Shown here piece after piece: positions 28,645-33,101 of a DNA stretch of 64,000 nucleotides (position 1 is its first letter; each line of letters starts with the position of its first letter). The DNA is from an uncultured Poribacteria bacterium (GTDB lineage: Bacteria > Poribacteria > WGA-4E > WGA-3G). The DNA is taken from the NCBI GenBank assembly GCA_951812525.1, contig OX638316.1, forward strand, positions 496,001 through 560,000. The letters run 5' to 3'. A model generated the notes under the pieces. The model searched no databases, was not told the DNA's origin, and saw nothing but the letters and a program-made list of their open reading frames with translations. A program made the translations under genes and the position numbers.

Positions 28645-29454
28645 CTATTCAAGAATACGCGCCATGCGCTCACGAATCCACGCTTTGTGTTCAGGATGTG
28701 TGTGAATATAGAAGGTGCCATTCTGAATCGCGTTAGAGACCTGCTCGGCTACTTCTGCAGGTGATAACCCAGCCTCCATCTCGGCACGGGCATTCCGAGA
28801 ACCCCCAATAGCTTGTTGATGTAACGGTGTTTCTGTCTTTGGATTTTGCAATGCATCCGGACGGTTTCGTGCAGCGTCCAGAATTCCAGTTTGGACCCAT
28901 CCGGGGCAAAGCACATGTACCTGGATATTCGCCTTTTTCTCCGCCAATTCATCAGCGAGTGTTTCAGAAAGGACAACAATTCCGTGTTTGCTCACCTTGT
29001 AGATGCCTTCGCCACTGCCTCCCACTAAACCTAAGATAGAAGCAGTGTTAACAATATGACACTCGTCACCTTGTGCGAGCATGTGTGGAACAAATGTGCG
29101 GATGCCGTGGATTACACCCCACAGGTTAACACCCAATACCCACTCCCAATCGGCGAGGGTATGTTCCCAGATAGGACGACTACAGACAACGCCAGCATTA
29201 TTGCAGAGGATATGCACTGCCCCAAAAGTGTCCAGCGTCTGCGCAGCGAGGTTTTCAACTTCCGAAGCTTTTGAGACATCCGTTCTGACAGCGAGAACTG
29301 TTGCCCCTTTGGCACTTAAGTCCGCATCAAGTTTGGCTAACTGTTCTTTGTCAACATCGGCGAGGACGACTTTCATGCCTTCAGCGGCAAACCGCTCCGC
29401 CAACCCTCTCCCGATGCCGCTCGCTGCGCCAGTAATAACGGCAACATTTTGCAT
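28645..29454 (-). CDS. Short-chain dehydrogenase/reductase (SDR)
   Basis: A 269-residue classical SDR: NAD(P)-binding T-G-A-A-S-G-I-G (residues 8-15), N-N-A-G-V, active-site S and Y-K-V-S-K (Y-x-x-x-K), and V-L-C-P-G-W after the catalytic helix. ATG 29454 is used; a TTG nine bases upstream would overlap the DUF169 stop. It begins 5 bases after the DUF169 gene and probably belongs to the same transcript as the radical SAM selenoprotein gene. Substrate unknown. Confidence 0.92.
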   Translation of the reverse strand: MQNVAVITGAASGIGRGLAERFAAEGMKVVLADVDKEQLAKLDADLSAKGATVLAVRTDVSKASEVENLAAQTLDTFGAVHILCNNAGVVCSRPIWEHTLADWEWVLGVNLWGVIHGIRTFVPHMLAQGDECHIVNTASILGLVGGSGEGIYKVSKHGIVVLSETLADELAEKKANIQVHVLCPGWVQTGILDAARNRPDALQNPKTETPLHQQAIGGSRNARAEMEAGLSPAEVAEQVSNAIQNGTFYIHTHPEHKAWIRERMARILE

Positions 29455-29459
29455 GACCT

Positions 29460-30146
29460 TCAAAGCTCCGCTTGGCGTTGCTGATGATATTCCTCTAATG
29501 CGCGATTTGCATTCACAATTGTCTCTAACTTTTCAACAATTGCATCAATGTGCTCACCAGGGAAAGCGAAGTAGAAGTCATCATCGGAAAGTGACGTATA
29601 GACGCGGTTACCGATACACCCCAAACTGCTTGCACTCCGACCACCCTCTACGACAGCCGGGATGACAGCACACGTCGGTCTACCCATGACCCCGTCTTGC
29701 GTCTCAATACCTGCAGCGGTTGCAGCTTCCGTCAAGAGCATCATCTGTCTCGGTGTCCCGGAGATAATGACGACATCAGGCATACCAGTCGCATCTGCTA
29801 ACGGAGAATAGACCGCACTCTGGAAAGGGTTTTCCCGACGTGGTATACCGGGGACCTCCTCCATAGCGAGGTAACCGAGTTCCACCATCAGTCCGAGGGT
29901 GTTTTCAAGTTCTTTGGCTTGTGTATCGGGCAACTCAACGTTGTGTGTATAACATCCGATTGGACAGTTATAATGGTCTGATGCTTCGGTATAGAAGGAT
30001 TTGCCTTCCGCAGCACGTCGCCAATAGGTGCAGCCGGAGGGTTCCACTTTCTCAGTATGTGGAACATCATCGGGGCGTACATCGTGAAAAGTTACGGCAA
30101 CAGGGGCAGTTTCCAAATTAAGTAGTTGTTGAATTTGTTCTGACAT
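29460..30146 (-). CDS. DUF169 domain protein
   Basis: A 228-residue DUF169 protein: L-E-T-A-P-V-A-V-T-F-H near the N-terminus, then two Cys-rich blocks (S-G-C-T-Y-W-R and N-C-P-I-G-C-Y-T-H) and a P-R-Q-M-M-L region. DUF169 proteins of unknown function occur beside metabolic radical SAM and methyl-transfer genes. The three Cys residues could coordinate metal or an iron-sulfur cluster (inference). It has a good Shine-Dalgarno (agaggaag) and starts 24 bases after the read-through stop of the radical SAM selenoprotein gene. Confidence 0.85.
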   Translation of the reverse strand: MSEQIQQLLNLETAPVAVTFHDVRPDDVPHTEKVEPSGCTYWRRAAEGKSFYTEASDHYNCPIGCYTHNVELPDTQAKELENTLGLMVELGYLAMEEVPGIPRRENPFQSAVYSPLADATGMPDVVIISGTPRQMMLLTEAATAAGIETQDGVMGRPTCAVIPAVVEGGRSASSLGCIGNRVYTSLSDDDFYFAFPGEHIDAIVEKLETIVNANRALEEYHQQRQAEL

Positions 30147-30170: not shown

Positions 30171-31571
30171 TTAAATGTGAATTGGGACGAACTGCCCTTC
30201 AGTAGGTTCCGCTCAGCAAAACCACGCTTCCGTGAGGCGTGGTGCGGGTAGATGTACATCGCCCCTCTGTTTCGGAGGAGCCTGTCCTTGCATATCGGCG
30301 GCGAGTGCCCATATCCGATAAAAGGTTTCCAGAGCATCAACACCAGCGCGGGCATCGTTTTCAACAAGATCATTAACCGTTTTATGAAGCTCATCCATTC
30401 GGGCATCGGGGTGTGACCATGCGTAACTGAAGGCGGCTTCATCAAGTGTAAGCGAAAGTGTTTCCACCTCAGGACGGTTGAGTAGATATGAACCGGGCGG
30501 AATTAGCAAGCGAACCGTATATTGCACCGGATCTACATGATAGACGAGTCGATGTGTATCAATAAACTGGAGGATCTCAAGATAGTCTTCTAAGGTTGTC
30601 CACGGTGTGAACGGCACCCAAGTCGGACGTAGCGCGATTCCGGCTCCGTGAACGATGTCAATTGCTTCCTCTACATCGGCACGCGTGTGATGTTTCTCTA
30701 AGATTGTTAACACACACTCGTTCAGCGCTTCAACTGCAGAGATGACGAACCGACATCCGAGTTGCGCGAATTCTGGAAAGTGCTCTCTATTTTTTAGAAT
30801 GTGTTCAACCTTGGTTGTAAAATCGAAGGTTAGACTCGGAAAAGTCTCGTGCATTGCCCGGAGGATGCGTAGACCATGTGTCGGACCGTTAAGGAAATCT
30901 GGATCGCCGAAGGTGATATGCGTAGCACCTTCTACCACTTGTTCATGTATCTCAGCGAGCACAGTGTCGCGTTGCACAGCGAGAAACCTACCGTCATAAA
31001 CCGGTGGAATGGGGCAGTGTGTGCAGAGATGCTTGCATCCGTGGGTCGTCTCTGTATACCCGACGGTTCGCACCTCACCATCGTTTTCAAATTGGGCATA
31101 CAGCTCCAGCGGCGGCAGCTCTGCAATCGAGAAATCGGGTTCCTGGACTTCAGATTGTTCTTCCTTTACAAGGGACTCCACCAGTTCGACAAGTTGCGTT
31201 GATGCTTCGCCGCTGATGCAAAAGTCAACACCGTGTGAAAGTAGGTAGCCGGCGTTGAGTGTCGCGTAAAGCCCGTACATACAGATAGAGACATCTGGAT
31301 TGATTTGTCGGATGCGGTGCAAGAGGGAAATACCGAGTCTGAGTGCTGTATGCATCGGAACGGAAATCCCGATGAAACGTGCACGCTCGACCTTCTCAAC
31401 GTCCAACGATTCGACAGCAATGTCAATTACATCAGGTGTGAATCCTGCTTCCTCAAGAGCGCGGAGTGGACGCGTAAGCCCGATCGGTCGATGTCCGAGT
31501 TCGTAGCAGGAGATCAAGAGTATTGCGCCGGGGGCGTGAATCGCTGAGGAGATTCGCGTTTCTGTTGCCAT
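30171..31571 (-). CDS. B12-binding radical SAM selenoprotein (CUAEP-tail family)
   Basis: A cobalamin-binding domain (residues about 15-130) precedes a radical SAM core with cluster motif C179-x3-C183-x2-C186. The frame reaches a TGA at 30213-30215 straight after W-F-C452. If read as selenocysteine it continues Sec453-A-E-P-T-E-G-Q-F-V-P-I-H-I to TAA at 30171, giving 466 residues and the exact Cys-Sec-Ala-Glu-Pro tail of the CUAEP/CCAEP-tail radical SAM (seleno)protein family. After the TGA lies a possible short hairpin (gggc / gtccc, with a bulged base and a five-base loop) 15-29 bases downstream, in the range where bacterial SECIS elements lie. The ATG is 7 bases after a -10 box, so the mRNA is probably leaderless. 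Reading it as a plain TGA-terminated protein would lose 14 residues. Substrate unknown. Confidence 0.88.
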
Positions 31572-31659: not shown

Positions 31660-33033
31660 CTATCTCGAAAGCCGTCGAAGGATGTTGTGCGTAATGTGTT
31701 CAACGACGGCATCGCCGCCTGCCAATCCGTGCGACCAGTCGGTTGTGGCAGCCGTAAAGACGGTTCCACCTTGTGTATAGATACCCATCGTCGCAGCACC
31801 CGTTCTCCCTCTTTCCCAGCGTTCGTACCACTCGCAATCATCAGAATGCCAGCGGACAGGAGCAGTGGCGAGGATCGTGAAACTTTCAGGCGTACCATCG
31901 CGATAGGTGGGAACCGGTAAACCGTCTTCAAGGGTCCACTCACATCCGTCGCATTCATAGCCAACAATAGTATTCTCTCCACCGAAAGTGTCATCTTGCG
32001 CGAGGTTCGTTCCGTCAAACACCCAATGCCCTGGACGATGGGCTGTGTATTCTCCGGGACCATCCATAAACTGTCCGTGGCTCAAATGATAACCGCCCTG
32101 AAGAAAGCCCACACCGGTCAAATGATTCTCAGGACGATCCACCAGATAATGGCTCCACAGCGTACTGAGGGTACTGTGATCATCGGTTTTGTAAACAGGA
32201 TCCTGATTGTAAGTCTGCTTCCAGCAGACGAGTGCTCTGCCGTCATCTTCGGAGCGGACTTGCCAGCAGACAGAATTCCCGCTAAAGAAGGCGGCATTTC
32301 CACCATTCGCGATAAATGCCTCAAGATTATCGCGCATCGGAGCAGACCAGTATTCATCATGCCCAACACTCAGAACGAGTTTGTAATTCTCTAAGATCTC
32401 AGGATGGAACTCCAGATCACTATTCGCAGCGTAATCAAGCATATACCCGTTCTGTTCCGCCCAGACAATAAATGGCAATTCCCAGTTCCTAAAGATACCG
32501 CGAGTAGGTCGGTCAAACGAGACGCGATTTCCCTGTATCTTACTCCGCCCATGATATCCGTAAAGGCTAAAGCCACCCCAGTTATTGTATGCATTGTAGG
32601 TGTTGGTCGAAAGTTGAAGCAGCATTGAGGTGTTTGCCCCCGGCTTCGCCGGACGAACAATAAAGAAGAGTGTGCTTTCAGCTGTGCGGTGATTTCTGTA
32701 GATGTCGGTACCACCGCCATCGGTCACACGGAGCGTACCTTCATAATAGCCGCTCTGCCACGTTTCAGGCACTTCAAGCGTAAAGGCAGAGGGCCATCCA
32801 CATCCCTGTGATGATACATCTTCGGGCACCGAGTGCGCTTCACCGGGAAGTTCTGTTTGACTCCAGACGACCTCGCGCGTTGCGCCGATGCGAGCAATCT
32901 CAAGTGAATAGTTCTCCGCACTCGTCGAAATATGGAATGCGATTTCGCCACCGGGTGTATAACTGAGCTGGTGGGTGTATCCGTCAATATAGAGCGGTCT
33001 GATTTGGTTCTCGGTCTGCGTTAAAGTCGCCAT
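31660..33033 (-). CDS. N,N-dimethylformamidase beta-subunit-like protein
   Basis: A 457-residue protein whose N-terminal third is a beta-sandwich (Y-T-P-G-G-E-I-A-F-H-I-S) and whose main part, from about residue 125, carries the features of the dimethylformamidase large-subunit C-terminal domain: N-T-Y-N-A-Y-N-N-W-G-G, S-L-Y, P-F-I-V-W-A-E, L-S-V-G-H-D-E-Y-W-S, F-F-S-G-N-S-V-C-W. In the real enzyme this domain holds the mononuclear iron site. The start at 33033 has a strong Shine-Dalgarno (aaaggagc). Activity on a formamide is not proven; many such homologs in environmental bacteria have unknown substrates. Confidence 0.82.
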   Translation of the reverse strand: MATLTQTENQIRPLYIDGYTHQLSYTPGGEIAFHISTSAENYSLEIARIGATREVVWSQTELPGEAHSVPEDVSSQGCGWPSAFTLEVPETWQSGYYEGTLRVTDGGGTDIYRNHRTAESTLFFIVRPAKPGANTSMLLQLSTNTYNAYNNWGGFSLYGYHGRSKIQGNRVSFDRPTRGIFRNWELPFIVWAEQNGYMLDYAANSDLEFHPEILENYKLVLSVGHDEYWSAPMRDNLEAFIANGGNAAFFSGNSVCWQVRSEDDGRALVCWKQTYNQDPVYKTDDHSTLSTLWSHYLVDRPENHLTGVGFLQGGYHLSHGQFMDGPGEYTAHRPGHWVFDGTNLAQDDTFGGENTIVGYECDGCEWTLEDGLPVPTYRDGTPESFTILATAPVRWHSDDCEWYERWERGRTGAATMGIYTQGGTVFTAATTDWSHGLAGGDAVVEHITHNILRRLSR

Positions 33034-33101
33034 TATGTGTGCTCCTTTGATAGGTGGCATCATTCGCCAGTTGAAACACCAACGATATTAAGGCTATTTT
33101 T

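Follow-up and report, generated by a model that had tools for sequence, protein, structure and literature searches.

A predicted CUAEP-tail radical SAM selenoprotein of Poribacteria, related to ArsL, and its association with DUF169 and L-amino-acid ligase genes

The NCBIfam model NF040546, "CUAEP/CCAEP-tail radical SAM (seleno)protein," names a protein family whose mechanism and pathway are undescribed as far as the literature was searched. These searches returned nothing on CUAEP or RCCLKC and nothing on selenoproteins in Poribacteria, and the main text of a 2026 review of prokaryotic selenoproteins contains neither an NF04054x accession nor the string CUA. Selenocysteine (Sec) also occurs in some members of the ArsS-type radical SAM enzymes, TIGR04167 (PMC13188914, PMC9312934), but these form another family with another motif, GxxU. 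In this study, we examined a CUAEP gene in a 64-kb stretch (here named the window) of a poribacterial genome. The gene gives no match to TIGR04167, and we compared it with its homologs and with ArsL, the related radical SAM enzyme of arsinothricin synthesis.

Reading frame, domains and family membership

The gene (positions 30171 to 31571, minus strand) starts with ATG at 31571 and runs through T-E-A-W-F-C to a TGA at 30215-30213, its single internal TGA, which corresponds to residue 453. Past this codon, the same frame encodes A-E-P-T-E-G-Q-F-V-P-I-H-I and closes with TAA at 30173-30171 (tail and stop, 30171 to 30212), exactly as read in the preliminary description. The read-through product has 466 amino acids and the C-terminal motif W-F-C-U-A-E-P, of which C-(U/C)-A-E-P is invariant among 52 homologs. 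It matches NF040546 with 627 bits over positions 1 to 466 of 468 (curated cut-off, 500) and shows the same full-length match, tail and Sec/Cys site with no essential difference, so that the gene is a full member of the family to which it had been provisionally assigned. The second-best family was ArsL (NF040542). At 332 bits, below the ArsL cut-off of 450, and with neither an RCCLKC motif nor an ars neighborhood, the gene is not an ArsL proper.

The product harbors a B12-binding-like Rossmann domain (residues 19 to 130; 31182 to 31517, minus strand; PF02310, 38 bits) and a radical SAM core (residues 174 to 313; 30633 to 31052, minus strand; PF04055, 47 bits) with a CX3CX2C [4Fe-4S] motif (residues 179 to 186; 31014 to 31037, minus strand) that is invariant in the 52 homologs. 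A motif check of the protein found no DxHxxG, so it is at most a candidate cobalamin-binding protein despite the PF02310 match. The predicted structure has a pLDDT of 88.8, and its best solved folds are OxsB, AprD4 and TsrM. The tail lies in a segment of only moderate confidence (pLDDT about 65 to 70), so that any contact between the tail and the active site is conjectural. Searching solved structures with the CUAEP sequence returned distant radical SAM enzymes only and no ArsL structure. An Rfam scan of the 64-kb window gave no match, and no CUAEP homolog was found in phages.

Selenocysteine decoding of the UGA codon

Five lines of evidence, regarded here as independent, agree on Sec: the decoding machinery, alternation with Cys, a hairpin, selection and distribution. 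Decoding of the CUAEP UGA as Sec is very well supported by these comparisons. Among 79 tail-complete homologs from named genomes, the codon is TGA in 57 and TGC or TGT in 22, and A-E-P follows in all of them. Thus, the Cys-containing homologs anticipated by the preliminary description exist, and no homolog ended at the Cys without a conserved A-E-P, which would have spoken against Sec. A CUAEP gene over the cut-off was present in 48 of 98 relatives; the full-length copies contain exactly one internal TGA each, and all full-length poribacterial homologs have this same TGA. Across 57 sequences, the codons for A-E-P differ freely at their third positions but never at the other two. Judged by this comparison, selection acts on the amino acids encoded 3' of the TGA.

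The source genome, a single contig of 5.06 Mb, encodes selA (594 bits), selB (336 bits), selC and selD (358 bits), with the tRNA-Sec (78 bits) located 40 bp from selB; an absence of sel genes, the other objection raised beforehand, can therefore be dismissed. The selD gene of this genome (G000:C1:3914052-3914975, plus strand; locus L047) has a UGA of its own, at C-A-G-U-A-S-K, and is itself a selenoprotein candidate.

A clear tRNA-Sec (at least 56 bits) accompanies the Sec form in 17 of 18 genomes outside Poribacteria, but the Cys form in 4 of 22 genomes. When the tail is left out of the tree, the Sec/Cys state has to change 4 times, compared to a mean of 16 after shuffling of the labels, indicating that the state is stable and was switched a few times. 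Among named genomes, "Candidatus Poribacteria" metagenome-assembled genomes are the closest (89% identity for the nearest, L053). The Sec form also occurs in Planctomycetota, Rokubacteria, Methylomirabilota, Acidobacteriota, Chloroflexota and Gemmatimonadota, and the Cys form in Nitrospirota, Ignavibacteriota and Bacteroidota.

Homolog comparison and covariation revealed a bacterial SECIS-type hairpin at 30185 to 30197 (minus strand), with a 4-bp stem formed by GGGC (30197-30194) and GUCC (30188-30185) and the loop AGUUC (30193-30189), which begins 19 nt past the TGA. Taken alone, the sequence of this gene gives a weak hairpin (-4.1 kcal/mol; z, -1.5). Folding of single read-through sequences was uninformative or ambiguous, with some favoring another long pairing, and the case for the hairpin thus rests on the comparison of homologs. 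The stem is complete with all four pairs, and with an AGUU-type loop at a fixed position after the codon, in 56 of the 57 TGA genes, but in none of the Cys genes (0 of 22). In an alignment of 20 sequences, 100% of the cells pair, G-C, U-A, G-U and A-U pairs interchange, and two pairs change on both sides; the covariation score was reached by 0 of 500 shuffles. Stem and loop include a Gln codon, for which all 57 Sec genes use CAG, whereas the Cys genes use CAA (13) or CAG (9). The possible SECIS element noted earlier is thereby substantiated.

Standard gene callers end the frame at the TGA, as does RefSeq in the case of Thermomicrobium roseum, and this would be correct if the codon were a true stop followed by A-E-P by chance. 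However, the A-E-P-T codons are conserved with variation at third positions only, the Cys homologs run on into the same tail, the hairpin is restricted to TGA genes and the genome holds a full sel set. These comparative data already refute a true stop, which we consider very improbable. Translation of the frame past the UGA, whatever the residue, would also be expected if the codon were read through a general code change or by a near-cognate tRNA, e.g., one for Trp. This is extremely improbable, as the homologs have Cys and never Trp at the site, ordinary genes of the same genomes end with TGA, and both the hairpin and the Sec machinery are present. What the comparison shows is the pattern of Sec decoding, in which SelB and tRNA-Sec would read the UGA at 30215-30213, directed by the AGUU-loop hairpin 15 nt downstream.

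Annotation that stops at the UGA drops the only Sec of the CUAEP protein together with its probable functional tail. For the cultured organism T. roseum, RefSeq names the protein CUAEP/CCAEP-tail (WP_012643191.1; L133:5944-7380 on NC_011961.1) yet closes the gene at its TGA; beyond this codon, the frame reads A-E-P-L-E-D and is followed by a GGACCC/GGGTCC hairpin. The gene in the window had been called a hidden selenoprotein, which agrees with the truncated T. roseum record but less well with the NCBI model, where the tail is already named.

Partner genes, co-occurrence and a second candidate selenoprotein

Downstream of CUAEP, at a distance of 24 bp and on the same strand, lies the genome's single DUF169 gene (29460 to 30146, minus strand; PF02596, 103 bits). 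The third gene of the run encodes an SDR oxidoreductase (28645 to 29463, minus strand; PF00106) that is conserved in poribacterial loci and was seen beside CUAEP only in Poribacteria. DUF169 is present in 38 CUAEP loci of Poribacteria, Planctomycetota and Nitrospirota, usually as the adjacent gene in the same orientation. Conserved Cys residues of the DUF169 family (in G-C, D-H-x-x-C-x-x-G, G-x-P-x-C and a further G-C) suggest a metal or cluster site. Upstream of CUAEP, the window contains a DMFA2_C (dimethylformamidase-like) gene at 31660-33063, and related genes are conserved in this position in 23 poribacterial loci.

An L-amino-acid ligase gene (ATP-grasp_4 plus LAL_C2) follows CUAEP directly or one gene downstream in 15 loci, which belong to Nitrospirota, Acidobacteriota and Ignavibacteriota; NfuA and SufS genes were found near CUAEP in other loci. 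Eight Nitrospirota loci (L120, L127, L129 and others) also have, after the ligase and on the opposite strand, a gene for a protein of about 144 amino acids with no Pfam match. In Poribacteria, the ligase is present but unlinked to CUAEP; the ligase of the source genome (C1:3884335-3885570, minus strand) has 56% identity to a Nitrospirota ligase.

We counted co-occurrence in genomes of the window's taxonomic order that are at least 90% complete. CUAEP and the ligase were both present in 41 genomes and both missing in 15, with 0 genomes having CUAEP only and 1 the ligase only (Fisher, 7e-13, although such values are not true probabilities for related genomes). The corresponding counts for CUAEP and DUF169 were 37 with both, 4 with CUAEP only, 1 with DUF169 only and 15 with neither. 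In two genera, several lineages lack CUAEP, DUF169 and the ligase all at once, which indicates co-occurrence beyond shared ancestry, although these genomes are not independent samples. Neighborhood and co-occurrence show CUAEP, DUF169 and the L-amino-acid ligase as apparent members of one pathway. We hold with high confidence the combined reading of a selenoprotein that belongs to NF040546 and shares a pathway with these two partners.

The co-occurring ligase has the same two domains as BacD-type L-amino-acid ligases but scores far below the BacD cut-off and differs in an invariant Cys, replaced by UGA in the window's clade. This Cys, in I-G-G-L-C-A-R-T, is kept in 48 of 51 sequences, and the codon is TGA in the other three, which belong to the source genome (G000; locus L138:1491-2739, minus strand) and the closely related G024 and G035 (loci L157 and L166). 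In all three, 116 codons past the TGA stay open and, compared among these genomes, show strong constraint on the protein, which speaks against a pseudogene; between the source genome and G024, this part has a dN of 0.036 and a dS of 0.50, similar to the stretch upstream. A SECIS-type hairpin is conceivable at the ligase UGA, but it does not outperform shuffled sequences, and a different fold is favored in one of the three genomes. Hence, we rate the ligase of these three genomes only as a probable second selenoprotein. The literature searched contained no case of Sec in an ATP-grasp amino-acid ligase; if true, this would place Sec in an uncommon role, beyond the classical redox enzymes.

Possible chemistry and kinship with ArsL

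The CUAEP family is, by sequence, homologous to ArsL. The two align over 400+ residues, covering the B12-type and radical SAM domains, with 34 to 38% identity. ArsL ends on R-C-C-L-K-C, whereas the CUAEP tail, C-U-A-E-P or C-C-A-E-P, follows about 50 extra residues; in both proteins, the C-terminal tail thus presents two adjacent thiols (or a thiol next to a selenol). No relatives of ArsR, ArsB, ArsQ or ArsN were found near the 79 CUAEP loci, and weak methyltransferase matches occurred at two loci only, so that the neighborhoods do not point to arsenic as the substrate.

From these likenesses, we infer that the CUAEP enzyme may cleave SAM in an ArsL-like manner and move a SAM-derived group, possibly 3-amino-3-carboxypropyl, onto a thiophilic substrate that would be held by the vicinal Cys-Sec of the tail (Cys-Cys in other phyla). 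The unusual amino acid resulting from this reaction could then be coupled into a peptide by the ligase. We propose this specific chemistry, from SAM cleavage and group transfer to the Cys-Sec-held substrate and the ligase-made peptide, by analogy and only tentatively. A wider reading is likewise doubtful in its full form: CUAEP, DUF169 and the ligase would constitute an undescribed, widespread pathway that yields an unusual, metalloid- or selenium-bearing amino acid of the ArsL type, held on Cys-Sec, and incorporates it in a peptide. Within the clade of the window, this pathway would use two selenoproteins, since the invariant Cys of the ligase would also be replaced by Sec.

Metal(loid) binding by Cys-Sec has a serious competitor. 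The residues may instead form a redox pair (disulfide or selenylsulfide) serving to regenerate the enzyme or to reduce the substrate, in line with the mostly redox roles of bacterial Sec residues and with iron-sulfur upkeep, as Nfu, SufS and Suf-type genes adjoin CUAEP in several loci. However, where Cys-Cys or Cys-Sec residues are directly vicinal, they more commonly serve as a metal(loid) site than in redox, and the same vicinal pair is found in the tail of ArsL, a homolog that converts As(III). We give the redox role a little less than an even chance. Hence, of the redox-active Cys-Sec pair proposed in the preliminary description, the Cys-Sec is supported, while metalloid binding, suggested by the homology to ArsL, is at least as plausible as redox activity. 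The match to the B12-binding domain PF02310 and the methylases TsrM and CysS among the nearest folds would also fit a cobalamin-dependent C-methylase acting on a peptide or lipid. We regard this as unlikely, given that ArsL and no methylase family is closest in sequence, that the equally close fold AprD4 is a dehydratase without methyl transfer and that the DxHxxG motif is missing.

With this gene, a family already named by NCBI gains poribacterial members, and the novelty of the gene as such is therefore modest. New for specialists are its possible function, the kinship with ArsL, the three-gene co-occurrence and the UGA in the ligase. Homology to ArsL and the co-occurrence with DUF169 and the ligase across phyla turn a functionally uncharacterized radical SAM selenoprotein into a testable pathway. 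As in several CUAEP clusters, ATP-grasp ligase genes lie near ArsL, in three of the four ArsL clusters examined. The CUAEP and ArsL clusters may thus follow a common logic, in which an unusual amino acid, the product of a radical SAM enzyme, is built into a peptide by a ligase.
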